Positions 1,891 through 29,962 of a stretch of 57,853 nucleotides of DNA are shown here, piece after piece. The notes beneath the pieces were generated by a model. The model was not told the DNA's origin and ran no database searches. It was given only the letters and a program-made list of their open reading frames with translations. Within the stretch, counting starts at the first letter, position 1. Each line of letters starts with the position of its first letter. The stretch is from Prevotella sp. (lineage in GTDB: Bacteria > Bacteroidota > Bacteroidia > Bacteroidales > Bacteroidaceae): the NCBI GenBank assembly GCA_017554145.1, contig JAFZIZ010000017.1:1-57853 (forward strand). Reading direction: 5' to 3'. The translations under genes and the position numbers were made by a program.

Positions 1891-4093
1891 TGATAAACAA
1901 TAGCTCTCGATATTTCGGGAGCGTCCAGAGACCGTCTTCGACAATGAGTTCGAGCTTATCAGCTTCGTAGCGGATGGACTCCATGTGAGGACAGACGGTG
2001 TCGTGGTAGGCGATGGCGCGCTCGTGGATGTTCTCGATACGGTTCGCCACGCGACGGGCCTCGGTGAGGTCTTCTACCAGTTGCTCGATCTTCTCCGTGC
2101 GCTCGGCTATCTCTTCGATGAGTTTGATGTTACGGGCGGAGAGTTTGTTGGCTTTCTCGGTATTGAAAATAGCCGACGAGAAGATGTCCTTCATGCCCTG
2201 CACGTTCTTGATGAGCTGTGACTGATAGTGGGTGGCGACAGGGATGATATGGTTCATGGCGAGGTCGCCAAGTACGCGGGCCTCGATCTGTACGGTCTTG
2301 ACGTACGTTTCCCATTTCACCTCGTTGCGGGCCTCGAGTTCCTTGCGGTTCATCACTTTGGTGCTTTCAAACATCTCGACAGATGAGTCGTCGAGGTAGT
2401 GCTCGAAGATGACGGGGCACGACTTCTCGACATCCAATCCACGACAAGCGGCTTCCTTCACCCATTCCTCTGAATATCCGTTGCCATCGAAACGGATGGG
2501 TTTGCAGGTCTTGATATCGTCTTTCAGCACTTCAAGGATGGCGCTAACCTTGTTTTCGCCAGCGGCAATCTTCTTATCCACGCGCTCCTTGAACGAGTTG
2601 AGGGCTTCTGCCATCGCCGCATTCAGCGCAATCATCGCTGAGGCGCAGTTGGCACAGCTGCCTGGGGCACGGAACTCGAAACGGTTACCAGTAAAGGCGA
2701 AGGGCGATGTGCGGTTGCGATCGGTATTGTCGACAATCAGGTCGGGAATCTGTGGGATATCGATTTCCATACCTTGTTTGCCCTTTAAGTTGAAGAGTTC
2801 GTTCTTATCCGACTGTTCGATATGGTCGAGCAGTTCGGTGAGCTGGGTACCGAGGAACGACGAGATGATGGCTGGGGGAGCCTCGTTGCCTCCCAGACGG
2901 TGGGCATTGGTGGCACTCATAATCGACGCCTTCAACAGACCGTTATGGCGATAGACTGCCATCAACGTCTCGACGATGAACGTCACGAAACGCAGGTTTT
3001 CTTCAGGTGTCTTACCAGGGGCATGCAGGAGCACGCCATTGTCGGCAGAGAGGCTCCAGTTGTTGTGCTTACCCGAGCCGTTGATGCCGTCGAAGGGTTT
3101 CTCGTGCAGCAGCACACGGAAGCCGTGGTTGCGTGCCACCTTCTTCATCAGTGACATCAGGAGCATGTTATGGTCGACGGCAAGGTTACATTCCTCGAAG
3201 ATAGGGGCCAACTCAAACTGGTTGGGCGCTACCTCGTTATGGCGTGTCTTCACAGGGATGGCGAGCTCAAGCGCCTGAATCTCCAAGTCCTTCATGAAGG
3301 CTACTACACGGTCGGGGATGGTGCCGAAATAGTGGTCGTCCATCTGCTGGTTCTTTGCACTTTCGTGTCCCATCAGCGTACGTCCTGTCATCACCAAGTC
3401 GGGACGGGCGGAATAGAGACCCTCGTCGACGAGGAAATACTCTTGTTCCCATCCGAGGTTCACCTGTACCTTCGTTACATCGTTATAGAAATACTGGCAG
3501 ACGTCCTTGGCGGCATTGCCTACAGCATGTAAGGCGCGCAGCAAAGGAGCCTTGTAGTCGAGTGCTTCACCCGTATAGGCGATGAAGATGGTGGGGATAC
3601 ACAGGGTATCGTCGATGATGAACACGGGGCTGGTGGGGTCCCATGCCGAGTAGCCACGTGCCTCAAAGGTGTTTCTAATTCCGCCGTTGGGGAACGACGA
3701 GGCATCGGGCTCCTGCTGTACGAGCAACTTGCCTGAGAATTTCTCTATCATACCGCCCTTGCCGTCGTGCTCCACAAAGGCATCGTGTTTCTCTGCCGTA
3801 CCTTCGGTTAGCGGCTGGAACCAGTGGGTATAGTGGGTACATCCCATCTCCTGAGCCCATTGTTTCATGCCGTCGGCAACGGCATCGGCGATGGAACGGT
3901 CGAGGCTTGCGCCATTGTCCATCACGTCAACCATCTTGGCATAAACGTCGGCAGGCAGGTATTTATGCATCTTCTGCTTGTTGAAGACATACTTGCCGAA
4001 ATATTCTGATGGTCGCTCCTCAGGAGCTTTTACGTCGAGGGCTCTTTTCTTAAACGCCTCTTCGACGACCTGAAATCTTAAGTTGTTTGCCAT
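1886..4093 (-). CDS. glnN: Glutamine synthetase type III
   Basis: ATP-dependent synthesis of glutamine from glutamate and ammonium by the large dodecameric type III enzyme found in Bacteroidetes and cyanobacteria. The 735-residue length is typical. Visible signatures include LGWEQEYFLVDEGLY, the ATP/glutamate region KTRHNEVAPNQFELAP, HEKPFDGINGSGKHNNWSL, and the NRTSPFAFTGNRFEFRAPGS block near the active site. The start at 4093 (MANNLRFQVVEEAF) was preferred over an in-frame codon 33 nt upstream because it matches the family N-terminus and is preceded by AAAAGAG. It is the last gene of an operon with aguA and aguB, 25 nt after aguB, so ammonium released from agmatine could be reassimilated here. 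Confidence 0.96.
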   Translation of the reverse strand: MANNLRFQVVEEAFKKRALDVKAPEERPSEYFGKYVFNKQKMHKYLPADVYAKMVDVMDNGASLDRSIADAVADGMKQWAQEMGCTHYTHWFQPLTEGTAEKHDAFVEHDGKGGMIEKFSGKLLVQQEPDASSFPNGGIRNTFEARGYSAWDPTSPVFIIDDTLCIPTIFIAYTGEALDYKAPLLRALHAVGNAAKDVCQYFYNDVTKVQVNLGWEQEYFLVDEGLYSARPDLVMTGRTLMGHESAKNQQMDDHYFGTIPDRVVAFMKDLEIQALELAIPVKTRHNEVAPNQFELAPIFEECNLAVDHNMLLMSLMKKVARNHGFRVLLHEKPFDGINGSGKHNNWSLSADNGVLLHAPGKTPEENLRFVTFIVETLMAVYRHNGLLKASIMSATNAHRLGGNEAPPAIISSFLGTQLTELLDHIEQSDKNELFNLKGKQGMEIDIPQIPDLIVDNTDRNRTSPFAFTGNRFEFRAPGSCANCASAMIALNAAMAEALNSFKERVDKKIAAGENKVSAILEVLKDDIKTCKPIRFDGNGYSEEWVKEAACRGLDVEKSCPVIFEHYLDDSSVEMFESTKVMNRKELEARNEVKWETYVKTVQIEARVLGDLAMNHIIPVATHYQSQLIKNVQGMKDIFSSAIFNTEKANKLSARNIKLIEEIAERTEKIEQLVEDLTEARRVANRIENIHERAIAYHDTVCPHMESIRYEADKLELIVEDGLWTLPKYRELLFIR

Positions 4094-17705: not shown

Positions 17706-18782
17706 CTATAATTTTATAGTTTTATTCAACAGATAACAGTCTAACAGCGTCATCGCCGTCATTGCTTCCACAACGGGTACGGCACGAGGTAAAACACAGG
17801 GATCATGGCGTCCTTTTGCCGTGAGTTTTGTGGGATTACCAGCCGTATCTACTGTATTCTGTTCACGGAGTAGGGTAGCCACAGGTTTGAAAGCTACACG
17901 GAAGTAGATATCCTGTCCGTTGCTGATACCTCCCTGAATACCTCCACTGTGATTGGTCAGTGTCTTAATCTTACCGTATTCGTTGACGAAGACATCGTTC
18001 TGTTCAGAGCCTCGTGCAGATGCACCTTCGAAGCCTTCACCGTATTCAAAGCCTTTCACGGCATTGATACTCAGCATGGCGGCACCCAAAGCAGCATGTA
18101 ACTTGCCGAATTCTGGTTCGCCAATACCTGCCGGACAGCCTTTCACGACACAAGTAATCACACCACCGATGGTATCTCCCTCAGCCCTTACCTGTGTGAT
18201 GAGTTGCACCATCTCTGCTGCCTTGACAGGATCGGGACAACGTACGATATTCGTTTCCGTCAAAGAGAGGTCGTATTTCCGATAGTCACGCTCCAAAGCG
18301 ATAGTCCCAACCTGCGAGGTATAGGCCTGAATCTGAATGCCCAGTTGACGGAGTGCCAACTTAGCGAGGGCTCCAGCCACTACGCGACTGATAGTGATAC
18401 GCGCAGAAGACCTGCCGCCTCCACGATGGTCTCTATTCCCACCATATTTATAATGGTAGGTATAGTCTGCATGGGAAGGACGGAACAGTTGGCGCATATT
18501 CTCATAGTCCTGCGAGTGTTGGTTGGTGTTACGCACGATAAAACCGATAGGGCAACCTGTAGTACGCCCTTCAAACACGCCACTGAGCAGTTCCACCTGA
18601 TCGGCTTCCTGTCGACTGGTCGTGATACTGCTTTGTCCAGGACGACGACGATTCAGTTCACTCTGGATAAACTCCATGTCAATCTCGATGCCAGCAGGCA
18701 TACCGTCCACGACACCGCCAATGGCCTCGCCGTGACTCTCACCAAACGTCGTCAGTGTGAATATGTTACCAAATTTATTCAA
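17706..18782 (-). CDS. aroC: Chorismate synthase
   Basis: Converts EPSP to chorismate using reduced FMN; last common step of aromatic amino acid synthesis. 358 residues with all three family signatures: [31 protein letters not shown] and [15 protein letters not shown] with [10 protein letters not shown]. The initiation codon is TTG at 18782; the in-frame upstream codons are GAA, GAA, ATT, AGA and then a stop, so no ATG is available. This TTG is the last triplet of the octamer array between slyD and aroC. slyD lies upstream on the same strand and is probably co-transcribed. Confidence 0.93.
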
Positions 18783-18819
18783 TTCTTCAATTCTTTAATC
18801 CTTCAATTCTTCAATCTTT
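18780..18819 (-). repeat. Octamer array between slyD and aroC, supplying the aroC start codon
   Basis: Five 8-nt units read on the minus strand: AAAGATTG, AAGAATTG, AAGGATTA, AAGAATTG, AAGAATTG. It begins 3 nt after the slyD stop, and its last three bases are the TTG start of aroC. The same octamer occurs at 24085-24116 and 25021-25052. Confidence 0.85.
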
Positions 18820-22771: not shown

Positions 22772-23872
22772 TCACTCCTGCTTCTCTTCCACTTTCTCCT
22801 TCTCCTTTTTAATCACGTAGCGTTGATAGTAGGTGAGGAGGAGGGTAGTCATAGGGAGGGCAATGATCATGCCGAGCATGCCGAGGAGGGAGCCCCAGAT
22901 GGAGAGGGAGAGAAGGATGATGGCGGCGTTGAGTCCCATCACCTTACCCATAATCTTCGGGGTGAGGAAGGTGTCCTGTATAAGTTGTACTACACCGAAG
23001 ACGATGACAACCATCAGCATGATGAGCCAGAAACTCTGACCTGTATCTGCTGCCTTGACAATTGCCAAAAGGATGGCAGGAATGAAACCAATCAACTGCA
23101 GGTAGGGCACCATATTCAGCAGACCGATGAACATGCCGAGTCCAATAGCCATGGGGAAGTCGATGATCAAGAAGCCGATGCTGAACAGTACGCCGACACA
23201 GAAGGCTACCAAGCCCTGTCCACGGAAATACTTGTTCATACCTTCCGTGACGTCAGCCACCAGTCGTACGGCCATGCCGCGATAACGCGCAGGCAACAGG
23301 TCGGGCCATCCCTTCGTGAACTTCTCATAATCGAGCAGGATGAAGAGGGTATAGATAATGACCATCGCGAAGGTGACCAGTCCGGAGAGGGCACTGAATG
23401 AACTCATAATGACATCCCATACCTTTGGCATCGTCTCCTTGATGGTATTGATGAATCCGTCTTGCGTGACAATCGCCTTGATATCCTCCGTCGACATATG
23501 CTCATGGATGAACATCTCTATCTGGTCAGGAATATTGCTCATCAGCGAGTCTTTGGTGATATATTCTATCAGCATGTCCTTCACACGTATACTCTCCTCG
23601 ACGATAGGTGGTATCATGAGCCAGAAAACACCTGTGAGGACAGCAGCCACCGTGATAAAGGTACAGAGAATACCCACGATGCGATAGCGCAGTTTACAGC
23701 GATACTGGAAGAACTTCACCAGCGGGAACAGAATATAGGCTATCAGCCACGCCAGGAAGAAGGGTAGGAGTACGCCACTCAAGCGTTGGAGCAGCAGGTA
23801 GGCTCCTACAAAACCAAGTACCACCAAGGCACCACGTACGAACGAATCGAAGGTTATTTGTTTACGTTCCAT
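22772..23872 (-). CDS. AI-2E family transporter (PerM/YdiK-like)
   Basis: A 366-residue polytopic membrane protein with about eight helices; a large soluble loop (about residues 85-150) and the conserved C-terminal block MIGLLNMVPYLQLIGF-like, FGVVQLIQDTFLTPKIMGK and NAAIILLSLSIWGSLLGMLG define the family. Members export autoinducer 2 or act as ion antiporters; the substrate here is unknown. The C-terminus is highly charged (Lys/Glu). Transcribed divergently from the Phe/Tyr operon. Confidence 0.88.
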   Translation of the reverse strand: MERKQITFDSFVRGALVVLGFVGAYLLLQRLSGVLLPFFLAWLIAYILFPLVKFFQYRCKLRYRIVGILCTFITVAAVLTGVFWLMIPPIVEESIRVKDMLIEYITKDSLMSNIPDQIEMFIHEHMSTEDIKAIVTQDGFINTIKETMPKVWDVIMSSFSALSGLVTFAMVIIYTLFILLDYEKFTKGWPDLLPARYRGMAVRLVADVTEGMNKYFRGQGLVAFCVGVLFSIGFLIIDFPMAIGLGMFIGLLNMVPYLQLIGFIPAILLAIVKAADTGQSFWLIMLMVVIVFGVVQLIQDTFLTPKIMGKVMGLNAAIILLSLSIWGSLLGMLGMIIALPMTTLLLTYYQRYVIKKEKEKVEEKQE

Positions 23873-23948
23873 ATCTTAATATTATATATATGTCATTGTC
23901 TTAGCGTTTGCAAATTTACATGTTTTTTTCGATTTTTCTTTCAAAATG

Positions 23949-23980
23949 TTTGCGTAATTGCAGAAAAAGTTATACTTTTG
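23949..23980 (+). promoter_or_regulatory. Promoter of the Phe/Tyr operon
   Basis: TTTG (23949-23952), 20-nt spacer, TACTTTTG (23973-23980), full Bacteroidetes consensus, 29 nt before the leader-peptide ATG. Confidence 0.8.
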
Positions 23981-24009
23981 CAGCCGATAAGATAAAAAAC
24001 GACTGAAAG

Positions 24010-24087
24010 ATGTTGAATATGAACGCTTACTTTTACGGCTATTACTTTTACTTTACAAGCAATTGTGAAGCGGTTGGTCGTATGTAA
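24010..24087 (+). CDS. Phe/Tyr leader peptide of the pheA operon attenuator
   Basis: A 25-residue ORF containing NAYFYGYYFYFTSN: eight Tyr/Phe codons in nine. It lies between the promoter and a terminator hairpin ahead of pheA. Ribosome stalling at these codons when charged tRNA-Phe or tRNA-Tyr is scarce would leave 24063-24073 free to pair with the terminator's 5' arm. An octamer array starts exactly at its stop codon, as seen after other real genes here. Composition and position are seen directly; the regulatory role is inferred from the classical pheL/trpL mechanism. Confidence 0.85.
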   Translation: MLNMNAYFYGYYFYFTSNCEAVGRM

Positions 24088-24162
24088 GATTAAAGAATTG
24101 AAAAATTGAAGAAATGAAATAAGGCTCCGCTTCACAAACAAGTGAAAGCGGAGTTTCTTTTT
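24063..24162 (+). promoter_or_regulatory. Attenuator: antiterminator and terminator before pheA
   Basis: Antiterminator: 24063-24073 (TTGTGAAGCGG) is the exact complement of 24127-24137 (CCGCTTCACAA), 11 bp. Terminator: 24125-24135 pairs with 24142-24153 (11 bp, one bulged A), loop AAACAA, then TTTCTTTTT. The two structures share the 24127-24135 arm and are mutually exclusive. The first arm lies inside the leader ORF just after the Tyr/Phe run, so a ribosome finishing the peptide would mask it. Confidence 0.85.
24085..24116 (+). repeat. Octamer array between leader peptide and terminator
   Basis: TAAGATTA, AAGAATTG, AAAAATTG, AAGAAATG: four 8-nt units starting at the TAA of the leader peptide. 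It forms the loop of the antiterminator. Confidence 0.75.
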
Positions 24163-24180
24163 AAGAATAAAAGTCGAGAT

Positions 24181-25023
24181 ATGAAGAGAATAGCGATACA
24201 AGGAATTATCGGGTCGTTCCACGACATTGCAGCGCACCTGTATTACGAGGGTGAGCAGATACAGATAGTATGTTGCAATACTTTCGAGCAGGTGTTTGAC
24301 AGTATCAAGCAGGATCCGACGATGATAGGCATGACAGCCATCGAGAATACCATTGCGGGTTCGTTGCTGCATAACTACGAGTTGTTGCGTGACTCAGGTA
24401 CGACCATCGTAGGTGAGCATAAGTTGCATATCTCCCATTGTATCTGTTGTCTGCCAGAAGACGACTGGGACACGATTACGGAGATTCATTCCCATCCCGT
24501 TGCCCTGATGCAGTGTCGACAGTTCCTTGCTCAGCATCCAACAATCAAGAATGTGGAGGCTGAGGATACCGCTGGTAGTGCGAAGATGATTGCCGACGGA
24601 CAGCATAAGGGTTGGGCGGCTATCTGTCATGCAGAGGCAGCAAGGCTCTATGGACTGAAGGTGCTCGAAGACCATATCGAGGACAACAAGCACAACTTCA
24701 CGCGCTTCCTCGTGGTGAGCAGTCCTAACAAGGCAGACCTGTTGCGCCCATTGACAGAGACCAACAAGTCGAGCATCGTCTTCTCGTTGCCTCACGAAGA
24801 GGGTAGTCTCTCGCATGTTCTCGCCATCCTCTCGTTCTACAGGATTAACCTGACGAAGATTCAGTCGCTGCCCATCATCGGTAGGGAATGGGAATACCTG
24901 TTCTATGTCGATCTGATGTATGACGACTTGACACGTTATCGTCAGTCGATTGATGCCATCATCCCATTGACCAAAGACTTTAAGATATTGGGAGAATATA
25001 AAGATGGGAAGCAGACAAATTAG
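24181..25023 (+). CDS. pheA: Prephenate dehydratase
   Basis: Converts prephenate to phenylpyruvate. N-terminal type II periplasmic-binding-like catalytic domain (GSFHDIAAHLY, TMIGMTAIENTIAGSLLHNYELL, and the catalytic TRF motif in NFTRFLVVS) and a C-terminal ACT domain (SIVFSLPHEEGSLSHVLAILSFYRINLTKIQSLPI) that normally binds Phe for feedback. The start at 24181 (MKRIAIQGIIGSFHD) is chosen by homology; an upstream in-frame ATG would lie inside the terminator stem. First structural gene behind the attenuator. About 280 residues; no chorismate mutase domain here, as that is fused to the DAHP synthase. Confidence 0.94.
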   Translation: MKRIAIQGIIGSFHDIAAHLYYEGEQIQIVCCNTFEQVFDSIKQDPTMIGMTAIENTIAGSLLHNYELLRDSGTTIVGEHKLHISHCICCLPEDDWDTITEIHSHPVALMQCRQFLAQHPTIKNVEAEDTAGSAKMIADGQHKGWAAICHAEAARLYGLKVLEDHIEDNKHNFTRFLVVSSPNKADLLRPLTETNKSSIVFSLPHEEGSLSHVLAILSFYRINLTKIQSLPIIGREWEYLFYVDLMYDDLTRYRQSIDAIIPLTKDFKILGEYKDGKQTN

Positions 25024-25052
25024 AATTGAAAAATTGAAGAATTGAAGGATTG
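25021..25052 (+). repeat. Octamer array from the pheA stop codon to the aminotransferase start
   Basis: TAGAATTG, AAAAATTG, AAGAATTG, AAGGATTG, then AAGTT and the ATG at 25058. The first triplet is the pheA stop codon; the whole intergenic space is repeat. Confidence 0.85.
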
Positions 25053-25057
25053 AAGTT

Positions 25058-26242
25058 ATGATACAACCAGCAGACAGATTAGGTTTAGTACAAGAATACT
25101 ATTTCAGTAGGAAACTGAAAGAGGTGGCACAACTGAATGCAGAGGGTAAGGACATCATCAGTCTTGCCATCGGCAGTCCTGATATGCCGCCATCAGAGAA
25201 GACGATAGAGAAACTGTGTGAGGTAGCCCGTCAGCCGAATGCCCATGGCTATCAGCCTACGATGGGTACACCAGAGTTGCGTGAGGCGATGGCTCGTTTC
25301 TATAAGCGTTGGTATGATGTTGATCTCGACCCCAAGACAGAGGTTCTTCCGCTGATTGGTTCGAAGGAGGGTATCTTGCATGTAACACTGGCTTTCGTGA
25401 ATCCTGGCGATGAGGTGTTGGTACCTAATCCTGGTTATCCTACTTATACTTCGCTGTCGAAGATTCTGGGTGCGAAGATTGTGAACTACAATCTGCGTGA
25501 GGATAATGGTTGGCAACCTGATTTCGACCAACTGGAAGAAATAATGGCTAATAGCCAACAGCCAAATGCTAACAGCCGAATCAGGCTCATGTGGACCAAC
25601 TATCCCAATATGCCGACGGGTGGGAGAGCGCGTATGGAGACCTACGAGCGTCTGGTGCGCTTTGCCAAAGACCATAATATCGTCGTGGTCAACGACAACC
25701 CCTACAGTTTCATTCTCAACGAGGAACACCTGTCGCTCTTGCAAGTGCCTGGTGCGAAAGACTACTGCATTGAGTTCAACTCGATGTCGAAGTCACACAA
25801 TATGCCTGGATGGCGTGTAGGACTTTGTGCTTCCAACAGCCAGTTTATCTCGTGGATACTGAAGGTACAGTCGAATATCGAGAGTGGCACTTTCCGTGGT
25901 ATTCAACTCGCAGCCGCTGAGGCTTACGACAACAGTGACGAGTGGCATCGTGAGGCGAATATCAACACCTATGCTCGTCGCCGTCAGTATGCTGAGCAGA
26001 TTATGGATGTCTTAGGCTGTACCTATGACAAGAATCAGGTAGGTATGTTCTTATGGGGAAAGATTCCTGAAAATATACAGAACGTGGAAGACCTGACGGA
26101 GCGTGTATTGCACGAGGCGCGTGTCTTCATTACCCCAGGCTTTATCTTCGGCTCAAATGGTGAAAGATATATCCGCATTTCGCTCTGTGCGAAAGAAGAA
26201 AAAATCAAAGAAGCATTAGAAAGAATCAAAAAAGCAATATAA
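25058..26242 (+). CDS. PLP-dependent class I/II aminotransferase, probably aromatic
   Basis: Likely transaminates phenylpyruvate and hydroxyphenylpyruvate to Phe and Tyr, given its place between pheA and the DAHP synthase gene. Fold type I features: GSKEGILHVTLAF, NPGYPTYTSLS, NYPNMPTG, NDNPYSFI and the PLP Lys in NSMSKSHNMPGWRVG; the Arg that binds the carboxylate is in YIRISLC. 394 residues, about a dozen longer than relatives; the extra residues (NSQQPNANSR) come from an in-frame heptamer array at 25545-25579, in a loop just before the conserved RLMWTNYPN strand. Confidence 0.9.
   Translation: MIQPADRLGLVQEYYFSRKLKEVAQLNAEGKDIISLAIGSPDMPPSEKTIEKLCEVARQPNAHGYQPTMGTPELREAMARFYKRWYDVDLDPKTEVLPLIGSKEGILHVTLAFVNPGDEVLVPNPGYPTYTSLSKILGAKIVNYNLREDNGWQPDFDQLEEIMANSQQPNANSRIRLMWTNYPNMPTGGRARMETYERLVRFAKDHNIVVVNDNPYSFILNEEHLSLLQVPGAKDYCIEFNSMSKSHNMPGWRVGLCASNSQFISWILKVQSNIESGTFRGIQLAAAEAYDNSDEWHREANINTYARRRQYAEQIMDVLGCTYDKNQVGMFLWGKIPENIQNVEDLTERVLHEARVFITPGFIFGSNGERYIRISLCAKEEKIKEALERIKKAI
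25545..25579 (+). repeat. In-frame heptamer array inside the aminotransferase gene
   Basis: TGGCTAA, TAGCCAA, CAGCCAA, ATGCTAA, CAGCCGA: five 7-nt units. Two units contain stop triplets, but not in the frame used. Encodes a Asn/Gln/Ser-rich loop insertion. Confidence 0.8.
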
Positions 26243-26244
26243 TT

Positions 26245-27309
26245 ATGGAACTGGAATTAGAACCTTTGAAACTTCCGAGTGACAACGAACGCCCCTTCGT
26301 CATTGCAGGACCATGTAGTGCTGAGAGTGAGGAGCAAGTGATGACCACAGCCAAGCAACTGGCGATGTACGGATGTCATAACTTCCGTGCAGGAGTATGG
26401 AAGCCACGTACCAAGCCAGGAGGCTTTGAGGGACACGGTGAGCCTGCCCTGAAATGGTTGCAGCAGGTAAAGCAGGAGACGAAGATGCTCGTGGCTACTG
26501 AGGTGGCTACTCCTGAGCATGTGGAACTCTGTCTGAAATATGGTATCGACATCCTGTGGATTGGTGCCCGTACGACGGCTAATCCCTTTGCGATGCAGGC
26601 TCTTGCCGACAGTCTGAAGGGTAGTGATGTCCCCGTGTTTGTAAAGAACCCTGTCAACCCTGACTTAGAGTTATGGATTGGTGCTTTGGAGCGTTTGAAT
26701 CAAGCAGGTGTGAAGCGCATGGCAGCTATTCATCGTGGTTTCTCCAGTTACGACAAGAAGATTTATCGTAACATGCCGATGTGGCAGATACCTATCGAGT
26801 TGCATCGTCGTATTCCTGAACTGCCCATCATCAGTGACCCCAGTCATATCGGTGGTCGTCGCGAACTGATTGCCCCACTGTGTCAGCAGGCGATGGACTT
26901 AGGTTTCGATGGTCTGATTGTTGAGAGCCACTGCGATCCTGACAAGGCATGGAGTGATGCTAAGCAGCAGGTAACACCCGATGTGCTTGACTATATCCTC
27001 TCGCTGCTCGTTATCCGTGATGAGCACACTACCACCGAGGGTATCCAGCAGTTGCGTAAGCAGATTGACGAACTCGACAACCAGTTGATGGACTTGCTCG
27101 CCAAGCGTATGCGTGTATGTCGTGAGATTGGTCACTACAAGAAGGAACATAACATGACGGTGTTGCAGACTTCCCGTTACAATGAGATTCTCGACAAGCG
27201 TGGTGCTCAGGGTTCGCTCTTGGGTATGGGTCCTGAATTCGTTGCCCATGTCTTCGAGAATATCCATGAAGAGAGTGTTCGTCAGCAAATAGAAATCATT
27301 AATAAGTAA
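26245..27309 (+). CDS. Bifunctional DAHP synthase / chorismate mutase
   Basis: Residues 1-255 form a type I-beta (KDPG/KDO8P-like) DAHP synthase: FVIAGPCSAESEEQV, FRAGVWKPRTKPGGFEG, WIGARTTANPFAMQ, PVFVKNPVNPDLELWIGAL, and SDPSHIGGRRELI. Residues 265-354 are an AroQ-type chorismate mutase (QLRKQIDELDNQLMDLLAKR, EIGHYKKEHN). The fusion is common in Bacteroidetes and lets prephenate or chorismate feed back on DAHP synthesis. It sits 2 nt after the aminotransferase, and its stop overlaps the tyrA start by 1 nt. Confidence 0.95.
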   Translation: MELELEPLKLPSDNERPFVIAGPCSAESEEQVMTTAKQLAMYGCHNFRAGVWKPRTKPGGFEGHGEPALKWLQQVKQETKMLVATEVATPEHVELCLKYGIDILWIGARTTANPFAMQALADSLKGSDVPVFVKNPVNPDLELWIGALERLNQAGVKRMAAIHRGFSSYDKKIYRNMPMWQIPIELHRRIPELPIISDPSHIGGRRELIAPLCQQAMDLGFDGLIVESHCDPDKAWSDAKQQVTPDVLDYILSLLVIRDEHTTTEGIQQLRKQIDELDNQLMDLLAKRMRVCREIGHYKKEHNMTVLQTSRYNEILDKRGAQGSLLGMGPEFVAHVFENIHEESVRQQIEIINK

Positions 27310-28103
27310 TGAAGATATTAGTATTAGGTGCAGGAAAGATGGGAAGTTTCTTCATCGACCTGCTGAGTTTCGACCATGAGGTCGCTGTCTATGAGAAAGA
27401 CCCTAAGCGCATGCGGTTCACTTACAACTGTCAGCGCTTCACGGATATGGAGGAGATTAGAGACTTTGCCCCTGAACTCGTCATCAATGCCGTTACGTTG
27501 AAGTACACCATCCCTGTGTTTGAAGAGGTCATCCCTTATCTGCCGAAGGAGTGTATCATCAGTGATATCGCCTCTGTGAAGACTGATTTGAAAGACTTCT
27601 ACGAGAGGGCAGGGATGCGTTATGTGTCTACCCACCCGATGTTCGGACCTACCTTCGCCAACCTGCAACAACTGAGCGAGGAGAATGCCATCATCATCAG
27701 TGAGGGCGACTATATGGGACGTATCTTCTTTAAGGACCTCTATCAGAAGTTAGGACTCAATATCTACGAATACACCTTCGAGGAGCATGACAAGACGGTG
27801 GCTTACTCACTGAGTATTCCCTTCGTCTCTACCTTTGTCTTCGCTGCCGTCATGAAACATCAGGATGCACCAGGTACTACCTTCAAGCGCCACATGCGTA
27901 TTGCGAAGGGCGTGCTGAATGAAGATGACTATCTCTTGCAGGAAATCCTGTTCAACCCCTATACCCACGATCAGGTCAGTCAGATTCGTACGGAGTTGAA
28001 GGAACTCTTAGAAATTATTGATGAGAAGAATGCCGACGGTATGAAGGCATACCTTACGAAGATTCGTAATAATGTAAAGAGAGACATAGAGATTAAGAAG
28101 TGA
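27309..28103 (+). CDS. tyrA: Prephenate dehydrogenase
   Basis: NAD(P)-dependent oxidation of prephenate to hydroxyphenylpyruvate for Tyr. Rossmann motif VLGAGKMGSFFIDLL at the N-terminus, then ISDIASVKTDL and STHPMFGPTFANL, characteristic of TyrA; the C-terminal helical domain follows. 264 residues, the short form without chorismate mutase or ACT domain. Start ATG overlaps the previous stop (TAATG); its own stop overlaps the GTG of the exporter gene (GTGA), so translation is coupled. Confidence 0.93.
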   Translation: MKILVLGAGKMGSFFIDLLSFDHEVAVYEKDPKRMRFTYNCQRFTDMEEIRDFAPELVINAVTLKYTIPVFEEVIPYLPKECIISDIASVKTDLKDFYERAGMRYVSTHPMFGPTFANLQQLSEENAIIISEGDYMGRIFFKDLYQKLGLNIYEYTFEEHDKTVAYSLSIPFVSTFVFAAVMKHQDAPGTTFKRHMRIAKGVLNEDDYLLQEILFNPYTHDQVSQIRTELKELLEIIDEKNADGMKAYLTKIRNNVKRDIEIKK

Positions 28104-28258
28104 AGTATCATCTCGTTGCATTTCTCGTGGTAGCCATCTGGGGCAGCACCTTCGTCTTTACGAAGATGTTGCTCCTCGCTGGTCTTACACCTGCACAGAT
28201 CTTCACGCTCCGCTTCATCATCGCGTATGTGCTTCTGTTGGGATACCAGTTATTCTTC

Positions 28259-28286
28259 ACTCACCACTCACCTTTTCTGCCATTCC
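28259..28286 (+). repeat. Four heptamers at the EamA frameshift
   Basis: ACTCACC, ACTCACC, TTTTCTG, CCATTCC. The first two are exact repeats. The 28-nt length (1 modulo 3) accounts for the frame change. Confidence 0.6.
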
Positions 28287-28633
28287 AAGAAAGACGAACT
28301 TCTGATGGTATTGTTAGGTATCACGGGTGGCTCTGTGTATTTCCTCACAGAGAATGCAGCGATGCTATATACCACTGCAACGAATACCTCATTGATTGTC
28401 TGTTCGTGTCCTTTGTTTGCGATGTTGCTGGTAGCATTGTTCTATCGGCAGTCAGAGCATTTCACGAAGACACAGGTCTTTGGTTCCGTCATGGCGTGTA
28501 TAGGTATGGCGGTGGTAGTACTCAATGGACATTTTGTATTACATCTCTCGCCCTTGGGTGATACGCTCGCTTTCTGTGCCTGTCTTTGTTGGGCTGTCTA
28601 TTCGTTACTAATGAAAGTTGCGTTTGAACGAGG

Positions 28634-28705
28634 GCAGAGTGATGCTTGCATCAACTCTGCCGAGTGTGAGCAAGTTCGACCGAAGGTCAAGCCTGCCACT
28701 GAGCG
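28634..28705 (+). repeat. Hairpin-bearing insertion in the EamA gene
   Basis: Contains a long hairpin (28634-28660: GCAGAGT/ACTCTGC enclosing GATGC-TT-GCATC, one bulged A) and a smaller one (GACC-GAA-GGTC near 28678-28688). The encoded stretch (SDACINSAECEQVRPKVKP) is unlike a transporter loop, which suggests an inserted palindromic element kept in frame. Confidence 0.5.
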
Positions 28706-29074
28706 TTATTCCACACTCTTCATCACACGCAAGGTATTCTTCTATGGCTTGCTGACCATGATACCTTATTATCTATTTAATCCTGATGAGGTATCCCTTT
28801 TTTTCCATCTTTCTTCACTCCTCAATCCTCCTACCATACTCTTCAACCTGCTGTTTCTGGGTATTGTCGCTTCGATGGGGTGTTACGTTGTATGGAACTG
28901 GGTCATCAGCAAACTTGGCACTGTCGTTGCTACCAACTGGGTCTATTTCAACCCCATCACCACCATCATCTTCGCTTGGTGGTTGTTGCACGAGCAAATC
29001 ACACCTTGGTTCCTGATGGGTACAGTATTCATCCTGACGGGCATGTATCTCTGTGATAAAAAACGATCTAAGAT

Positions 29075-29962
29075 ATGAAACCATCCATCATTTTCCATCA
29101 GTATATCTGGCTTATCAATACGCTGAGGCGCTATCCACGAGTAACCCTCGACGAACTCTCTCAGCGATGGGTAGACGATGAGGTAGCAGAGGGCAACCCG
29201 CTTTCGCGTTCCTCGTTCAATCGCCATCGTGATGCCATCCTCGATATGTTTGGCGTGATTATCGATTGCGACACGCAGTATCGCTATTATATCAGTAATC
29301 CTGAGGTGCTCGATGACGACAGCCTTGAACGTTGGATGCTCTCTACGCTCACCGTCAGCAGTGTCCTTGCCGATAGTGCTTCACTTAAAGAACGTATCAT
29401 TTTGGAGAATGTTCCTGCTGGTGAGGAATATCTACAAACCATCATTCGTGCTATTAAGACGGGTAAGCGTATCCTGATGGGTTATCAGCGTTTCGGAGCC
29501 GAGGGTTATGAGAAGGTTGTCTCGCCCTATGCCCTCAAACTCTTCCATCAGCGATGGTATCTGCTGTCGTATACGGGGCGCCATTACGCTATCTATAGTC
29601 TCGACCGCATGAAGTCTGTATCGTTGACTGAAGAGGACTTTGAGATGCCTGCCGACTTCTCGCCCCAACAGTATTTCGCAGAGTATTTTGGTGTGTTGAC
29701 CGATGAGACTCCGATGGCACATATCGTTCTCAGAGCCTATGGTACGATGGCAAACTATTTGCGTACTCTGCCTTTGCATGCCTCCCAGCGTGAACTATCG
29801 ACATCAGAGGAATATACTGACTTTGCCCTCGACCTTCGTCCTACCTCTGATTTCATAGGTGAGTTACTTTCCCATGATTCCGTTATAGAGGTCATAGAAC
29901 CTCTCGACCTTCGTCAGAAACTCCTCCTGCGCATTGACGAGATGCGCCAAAGGTATCAGTAG
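29075..29962 (+). CDS. WYL-domain transcriptional regulator
   Basis: A 295-residue protein with an N-terminal winged-helix segment (residues 1-80, LSRSSFNRHRDAIL) and a WYL domain (about 130-200; VSPYALKLFHQRWYLLSY with the R-W-Y-L signature, then YSLDRMKSV). WYL proteins sense ligands such as nucleotides or nucleic acids and regulate stress, defence or metabolic genes. Its start overlaps the exporter stop (ATGA), so it is expressed with the Phe/Tyr operon. No defence genes are nearby. Target unknown. Confidence 0.85.
   Translation: MKPSIIFHQYIWLINTLRRYPRVTLDELSQRWVDDEVAEGNPLSRSSFNRHRDAILDMFGVIIDCDTQYRYYISNPEVLDDDSLERWMLSTLTVSSVLADSASLKERIILENVPAGEEYLQTIIRAIKTGKRILMGYQRFGAEGYEKVVSPYALKLFHQRWYLLSYTGRHYAIYSLDRMKSVSLTEEDFEMPADFSPQQYFAEYFGVLTDETPMAHIVLRAYGTMANYLRTLPLHASQRELSTSEEYTDFALDLRPTSDFIGELLSHDSVIEVIEPLDLRQKLLLRIDEMRQRYQ

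Follow-up and report, generated by a model that had tools for sequence, protein, structure and literature searches.

The 57,853-nt stretch of Prevotella sp. DNA analysed here (hereafter the window) carries on its plus strand the pheA operon, which consists of pheA, encoding prephenate dehydratase (24181..25023, with its ATG at 24181; PF00800), a class I/II aminotransferase gene (25058..26242; PF00155), a gene for DAHP synthase fused to chorismate mutase (26245..27309; PF00793 and PF01817), and tyrA, encoding prephenate dehydrogenase (27309..28103; PF02153). An AI-2E-family gene is located divergently from pheA on the minus strand (22772-23872), and the 308-nt intergenic region between the two carries a promoter, a leader and a terminator, all on the plus strand. 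Gene order was counted in the 65 named loci that are 9.7 kb or longer, and the four operon genes are consecutive in all of them. Thus, whereas the preliminary description placed five or six genes under common control, and was correct in including DAHP synthase-chorismate mutase and tyrA, only four genes are constant. In 27 of these 65 loci, tyrA is followed by matches to EamA pieces. WYL was matched in two of the 65, both times upstream of pheA, but a WYL gene downstream of the operon would be cut, because the loci extend only 4.5 kb past pheA. In the window, the gene for the EamA-family transporter that follows tyrA (28100-29078) is broken into two ORFs in different frames (28100-28561 and 28227-29078). 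Among the 26 relatives having the second piece, 24 show one open frame there, of 292-349 codons. The split gene of the window may be a pseudogene or an assembly error.

The promoter upstream of the leader is of the Bacteroidota type (23949..23980, plus strand), with a -33 element TTTG at 23949-23952 and a -7 element TACTTTTG at 23973-23980, spaced by 20 nt. The latter conforms to TAnnTTTG, which is given as the -7 box in PMC9723704. Downstream of it, the leader peptide ORF (MLNMNAYFYGYYFYFTSNCEAVGRM; 24010..24087, plus strand) comprises 25 codons from the ATG at 24010 to the TAA ending at 24087, and homologues of it were found. Its codons 7-15 (24028..24054) read YFYGYYFYF, i.e. eight Tyr or Phe codons out of nine. 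Of the 1,362 short ORFs detected on both strands of the window (703 + 659), no other has seven or more Tyr/Phe among nine codons.

The end of the YF run and the sequence following it contain four segments with alternative pairing partners. Region 1 (CUUUACAA, 24051..24058, plus strand) is the partner of region 2 (UUGUGAAGCGG, 24063..24073, plus strand), which is common to the 1:2 hairpin and to the 2:3 antiterminator. Indeed, the segment 24063-24073 (TTGTGAAGCGG) is the exact reverse complement of region 3 (CCGCUUCACAA, 24127..24137, plus strand). The latter forms the 5' arm of an intrinsic terminator (24122..24162, plus strand), region 4 (24142..24156, plus strand) being the 3' arm. The terminator hairpin lies at about 24123-24155, with a folding energy of -18.8 kcal/mol, and is followed by a T-rich tail (TTTCTTTTT, 24154-24162). 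The 191-nt leader as a whole folds with a z-score of -3.79, and one of 200 shuffles folds as well. All the individual parts listed in the preliminary description, namely a consensus promoter, a 25-codon ORF with eight Tyr/Phe codons among nine, an exact 11-bp complement between the end of this ORF and the terminator 5' arm, and a terminator with a T-tract directly before pheA, can therefore be read in the sequence. A generic promoter/terminator scan of the window reported neither this promoter nor this terminator, probably because it seeks E. coli-type hexamers and because the stem has one bulged A.

Between the ORF and the terminator, an A-rich spacer (24088..24121, plus strand) carries AATTGAAR-like repeats. 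Its length and sequence are variable among the genus members that we aligned (alignment A1). Such intergenic repeats occur at 24096-24118, 25024-25054 and 18778-18816, with seven AATTGAAR matches in the window versus 0.02 expected. Similar stretches exist elsewhere in the same genome. One of the arrays constitutes the attenuator spacer.

Our dataset of relatives contains 272 regions upstream of pheA, pooled from a near group (named genomes), a genus, an order and a class group. The groups are named after the search from which they originate; the window is counted in the near group, and four members of its family or order are in the class group. The order and class searches yielded pheA matches in 88 of 198 and 56 of 197 genomes, respectively. 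A leader with at least 6 Tyr/Phe in 9 codons was detected in all 78 near regions, in 58 of the 62 genus regions, in 71 of the 80 from the order and in 33 of the 52 from the class, which leaves 0, 4, 9 and 19 regions, respectively, without one. With a threshold of at least 7 in 9, the counts are 77, 57, 63 and 24. Considering the named loci only, a YF-rich ORF is detected in all 79 with sufficient upstream sequence (77 by count, L013 and L034 by inspection), the upstream sequence of the eightieth, L025, being too short. Among newly fetched upstream regions, at least 7 of 9 is reached in 42 of 51 from the order and 10 of 25 from the class (52 of 76 together), as compared to one of 76 antisense strands and one of 1,520 dinucleotide shuffles. 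Other parts of the unit accompany the ORF. TAnnTTTG boxes are located upstream of the leader in 76 of 77 near, 54 of 57 genus, 40 of 62 order and 14 of 24 class regions (4-7% in shuffles), and a terminator was found after the leader in 75 of 78, 50 of 58, 69 of 71 and 33 of 33, respectively. Conservation of the YF-rich ORF upstream of pheA in relatives, on which the preliminary description had staked its reading, thus holds from the near to the class level.

We also built a covariance model of the genus leader (R1) and searched 60 genus genomes with it, some of which had contributed to the model. There are 49 matches in 48 genomes, and 47 of them lie 0-75 nt before pheA on the same strand. An R1 match was obtained in 47 of the 48 genomes with a pheA match and in one of the 12 genomes without. 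The exception with a pheA match but no R1 match is G039, whose pheA match is weak (32%). Conversely, genome G029 has no pheA match and has kept the leader immediately upstream of its aminotransferase and DAHP synthase-chorismate mutase genes. The unit therefore seems to be tied to the operon and not to pheA as such. This leader (L331) lies on contig 62 at about 2835-2986, minus strand, and a stretch resembling a pheA start (ATGAAGAGA) follows its terminator. One weak R1 match (33.9 bits), in genome G016, lies past the 3' end of pheS, on the other strand, and was taken as a chance match. A simple pattern, TWY x5, produced 72 matches in the genome of the window versus 161 for the reversed control, and is thus useless for finding further leaders.

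What is conserved in the ORF is a run of codons for either Tyr or Phe. The peptide itself is not conserved beyond the nearest relatives: while the closest ones share YFYGYYFYF, other members have runs such as YYYFYFYF, SFYYFYFYF, AYYFFFYFYF, FYYGFYFYF or FFFFFAFFF. Trp codons are located within or beside the Tyr/Phe run in 20 of the 221 leaders having at least 7 of 9 (e.g. L209, L235, L238, L242 and L056). In all 87 members of the genus alignment, the distance between the column of the window's start codon and the point where the YF run ends is divisible by three. At the last nine codon positions of the run there are 685 TAY/TTY, 2 TGG and 96 other codons, and no TTR/TAR, although this count is biased because the aligned sequences were selected for having a YF run. 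Between the YF run and the end of region 2, frame shifts occur in six of the 87 members, GAAGCGG being kept in five of them and GAAGCAG in the other, so the core of region 2 is kept in frameshifted leaders. L084, judged by its peptide, is a seventh leader in which the frame is lost after the YF run. As the frame is held up to the YF run and is later lost with the pairing segment kept, it looks as if the ribosome constrains the first half of the ORF and RNA pairing the second. A frame constraint followed by an RNA pairing constraint is required for an attenuator but not for a functional small protein.

The same data bear on the possibility that the leader encodes a TnaC-like arrest peptide, in which the nascent YF-rich chain itself would detect free Phe, Tyr or some other molecule and thereby stall the ribosome, the RNA switch being set in this way instead of by codon starvation. 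The good conservation of YFYGYYFYF in the closest relatives, ahead of a terminator, is what an arrest peptide could show. In distant members, however, Tyr and Phe exchange places freely within the run, a change to which arrest peptides are usually intolerant, and the residues after the YF run are lost in frameshifted members. This explanation survives best among the alternatives to a ribosome-mediated attenuator, and we nevertheless consider it very unlikely.

The helices expected of an attenuator were evaluated by covariation in the genus alignment, using shuffle controls which ignore the kinship of the sequences. For the 3:4 terminator, 90.2% of cells are paired and there are 83 double-change cells versus 23.0 +/- 9.8 in shuffles, a level attained by none of 500. 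These double changes are distributed over 8 pairs, a number reached by 8 of 500 shuffles. For helix 1:2 (24051-24058 with 24063-24070), 99.0% of cells are paired, with 29 double-change cells versus 10.3 +/- 2.1, and none of 500 shuffles has as high a covariation score. All but one of these approximately 29 double changes affect a single pair (A-U to G-C), which is why the number of pairs with a double change (1) is no higher than in shuffles. As for the 2:3 antiterminator, 23 double-change cells are observed within the genus versus 15.1 +/- 2.8 (3 of 500 shuffles). Further pair types and covariation score are matched by 204 and 32 of 500 shuffles, respectively, and pairs tried beyond the 11 bp mostly fail. 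Weak 2:3 covariation is expected in the genus, since region 2, with its two pairing partners, shows little variation there. Compensatory changes, which were to be sought in relatives according to the preliminary description, are thus found in 3:4 and 1:2 but are few in 2:3 within the genus.

Comparisons between lineages provide further information on 2:3. For leaders that reach at least 7 of 9 and are followed by a terminator no more than 180 nt away, we calculated the energy of the duplex between region 2 and its own terminator arm or those of other leaders. Own pairing gives -16.5 versus -10.5 kcal/mol in the order (own better in 57 of 59), -17.8 versus -12.1 kcal/mol in the class (23 of 23), and -20.8 versus -18.8 kcal/mol in the genus (36 of 49), while control segments upstream of the leader yield -6.5 to -7.1 kcal/mol. 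In a cruder, less filtered swap test, own pairing is in the best 5% for 5 of 75 near, 8 of 50 genus, 34 of 69 order and 14 of 33 class leaders. The near and genus leaders, for which these counts are low, have arms that differ little from one another.

Conserved hairpins and a terminator would also be compatible with a structured leader bound by a protein, a tRNA (T-box) or a metabolite (riboswitch), the ORF being incidental. Phe leader and T-box families are represented in Rfam. A search of the window with the 4227 families of Rfam 15 returned no match at gathering score, and with E-values up to 10, only unrelated, sub-threshold RNAs (E 0.2 to 8) were obtained in 23900-24250. This, together with a YF codon run maintained under frame constraint, makes a ligand-bound leader very improbable, slightly more so than an arrest peptide. 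Least credible of all is a small functional (e.g. membrane) protein whose mRNA merely ends at the hairpin, with pheA expressed from leftover readthrough, since this reading agrees with an open frame having its own promoter and terminator but not with the loss of the C-terminal frame in 6 of 87 members that keep the RNA segment, with the complementarity of the segment after the YF run to the terminator arm in lineage after lineage, or with the location of the unit next to pheA in 47 of 49 R1 matches.

We now return to ribosome-mediated attenuation, and to the alternative structures that it involves. Equilibrium folding of the free RNA was computed for each ribosome position, assuming a 15-nt footprint beyond the A site. 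When the RNA is made up to 24138, the 2:3 helix forms at a probability of 0.99-1.00 with the A site on codons 2-16, and of 0.66 with the A site on codon 1. With the A site on codons 17-26, 2:3 is not formed, and with no ribosome, 1:2 forms and 2:3 does not. The scan yields 2:3 also at codons 2-6, which are not Phe/Tyr codons. When the RNA extends to 24165, the equilibrium fold is the terminator (14 pairs), without 2:3, at all 26 ribosome positions, and the energies in the window are -17.3 kcal/mol for the 2:3 duplex versus -18.8 kcal/mol for the terminator. As the terminator wins at equilibrium in the full leader, the switch must be kinetic, with 2:3 forming first and holding. This leaves the odds of attenuation unchanged, since the classical mechanism itself involves a kinetic choice. 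The parts were said to be in the order needed for ribosome-stalling attenuation, and they are; in addition, the partly made RNA takes the expected alternative folds in the equilibrium calculation with the assumed footprint.

Under this mechanism, RNA polymerase would start about 20 nt before the leader ORF and be followed by a ribosome translating the leader peptide. If Phe- or Tyr-tRNA is short, the ribosome would stall on 24028-24054, covering or destabilising region 1. Region 2 would then pair with region 3 before region 4 is made, so that the terminator could not form in time, and pheA, the aminotransferase gene, the DAHP synthase-chorismate mutase gene and tyrA would be transcribed. If both Phe and Tyr are plentiful, the ribosome would reach the stop codon (24085-24087), covering region 2 on its way, which would let the 3:4 terminator form and transcription end at about 24160. 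In the absence of translation, region 1 would occupy region 2, making termination the default. We infer that termination changes with Phe/Tyr supply in this manner, and that the sequence of these events in time decides the outcome. Overall, it is highly likely that the leader is a classical ribosome-mediated transcription attenuator that operates in this way and reads charged tRNA-Phe and tRNA-Tyr jointly. Sensing of either one suits an operon whose enzymes produce the two amino acids and also feed the common pathway.

The preliminary description of a complete Phe/Tyr attenuator with leader peptide before the pheA operon is thus supported by the parts, their conservation and the covariation of 1:2 and 3:4. 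On sequence evidence, the pheA leader is real, well conserved and highly likely to be an attenuator, and the first reading was right in all essentials. Very probably, it lets the cell express the Phe/Tyr synthesis genes only when these amino acids run short.

In terms of known systems, the leader resembles the enterobacterial pheA (pheL) attenuator in the gene controlled, the codon run, the overlapping antiterminator and terminator, and the order of parts. However, enterobacterial pheL is known to read Phe only and to precede pheA alone, whereas the Prevotella leader mixes Tyr and Phe codons, its operon includes tyrA and DAHP synthase, and its promoter is of the Bacteroidota type. Multivalent leaders in which one leader peptide reads several amino acids are known, such as those of thrABC and ilv, but these concern other amino acids and genes. 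Within Bacteroidota, an older comparative attenuation study reportedly names, in its abstract, Bacteroidetes/Chlorobi among the groups with some candidate attenuators, and may thus provide partial precedence for attenuators of this phylum. The Bacteroid-trp motif (RF01692) is another putative leader element of an amino-acid operon in Bacteroidota (PMC2864571). It is similar to the pheA leader in these respects but differs in sequence. It has no match in the window or in the genome to which the window belongs, and matches five of the 60 genus genomes (four above the cut-off) at places other than pheA leaders.

The closest precedent comes from the transcriptome of Flavobacterium psychrophilum, where a structured 5' element without Rfam hit was reported before pheA and found to be conserved in Flavobacteriaceae, its authors also mentioning strong clues that leader peptides mediate attenuation ahead of amino-acid operons (PMC9723704). 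Gene and phylum are the same as here, although the passages concerned give no codons, helices or spread beyond the family. In the Bacteroides thetaiotaomicron transcriptome, sORFs in long 5' UTRs recall leader peptides, the words phenylalanine and prephenate being absent from its text (PMC7366714). Elsewhere in bacteria, Phe/Tyr uORF candidates precede shikimate genes (PMC6429828), and uORFC-13-1 precedes aroF in Acholeplasma (PMC8632094). These uORFs also have Phe (and Tyr) codons before aromatic genes, but either the gene or the phylum differs, and the passages concerned name no Bacteroidota genome as source. Finally, phenylalanine, prephenate and attenuation go unmentioned in the main text of a study presenting a large collection of candidate RNAs from human microbiomes (PMC8040213). 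No described Phe/Tyr attenuator of Bacteroidales was found in the open papers searched. The preliminary statement that no described Phe/Tyr counterpart was known is therefore only partly right: it agrees with these open papers as regards Bacteroidales, but must be qualified by the pheA 5' element of Flavobacteriaceae reported in PMC9723704. The kind of regulation is known, as classical attenuation, and pheA is already flagged in this sister lineage. The anatomy of the pheA leader, its joint reading of Phe and Tyr, its wide spread and its tandem forms seem, from the open papers searched, to be new.

Such tandem forms, in which two complete YF attenuators follow each other in series, each leader with its own terminator, are present in 14 of the 272 pheA upstream regions. 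Twelve belong to the order group (L212, L225, L237, L250, L253, L254, L264, L270, L275, L280, L283 and L284) and two to the class group (L204 and L304). These 14 regions span nine families as labelled in the order and class searches, five of which have two members each. In 26 of 28 comparisons, region 2 pairs better with the terminator of the unit to which it belongs than with that of the other unit (-16.7 versus -10.5 kcal/mol; Wilcoxon test, p = 1e-5). We looked for a division of labour between the two units with respect to Phe and Tyr and found none in these regions, F:Y being 66:52 in the first unit and 65:49 in the second. We give about even chances to the broader proposal that a joint Phe/Tyr attenuator family, outside Rfam, is the common control of aromatic amino-acid synthesis across Bacteroidia and has been doubled in nine families. 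If so, termination would be multiplied where two sensors of the same amino acids stand in line, resulting in a steeper, more switch-like response, and leaders with Trp codons would let a DAHP synthase operon read all three aromatic amino acids. Natural tandem attenuators would make the arithmetic of two serial sensors measurable.

Classical leader-peptide logic, best studied in enterobacteria, is indicated here as controlling the Phe/Tyr branch in its entirety, DAHP synthase and tyrA included, via one sensor. Members of the host class abound in animal guts and initiate translation without Shine-Dalgarno sequences. The pheA leader offers an RNA family to annotate across this class, as well as a direct route to studying transcription-translation coupling there.

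Other amino-acid operons of the order were considered through hisG, for which a search gave no match in the genome of the window and matches in 11 of 20 genomes. His-rich short ORFs are present in three of the 11 hisG loci of order genomes, for example with a run of six His. One of them, in L322 (position 81), lies about 1.4 kb before hisG. The other two, in L321 (at about 1186) and L330 (at about 1185), are located about 300 nt before hisG and are perhaps part of His attenuators.
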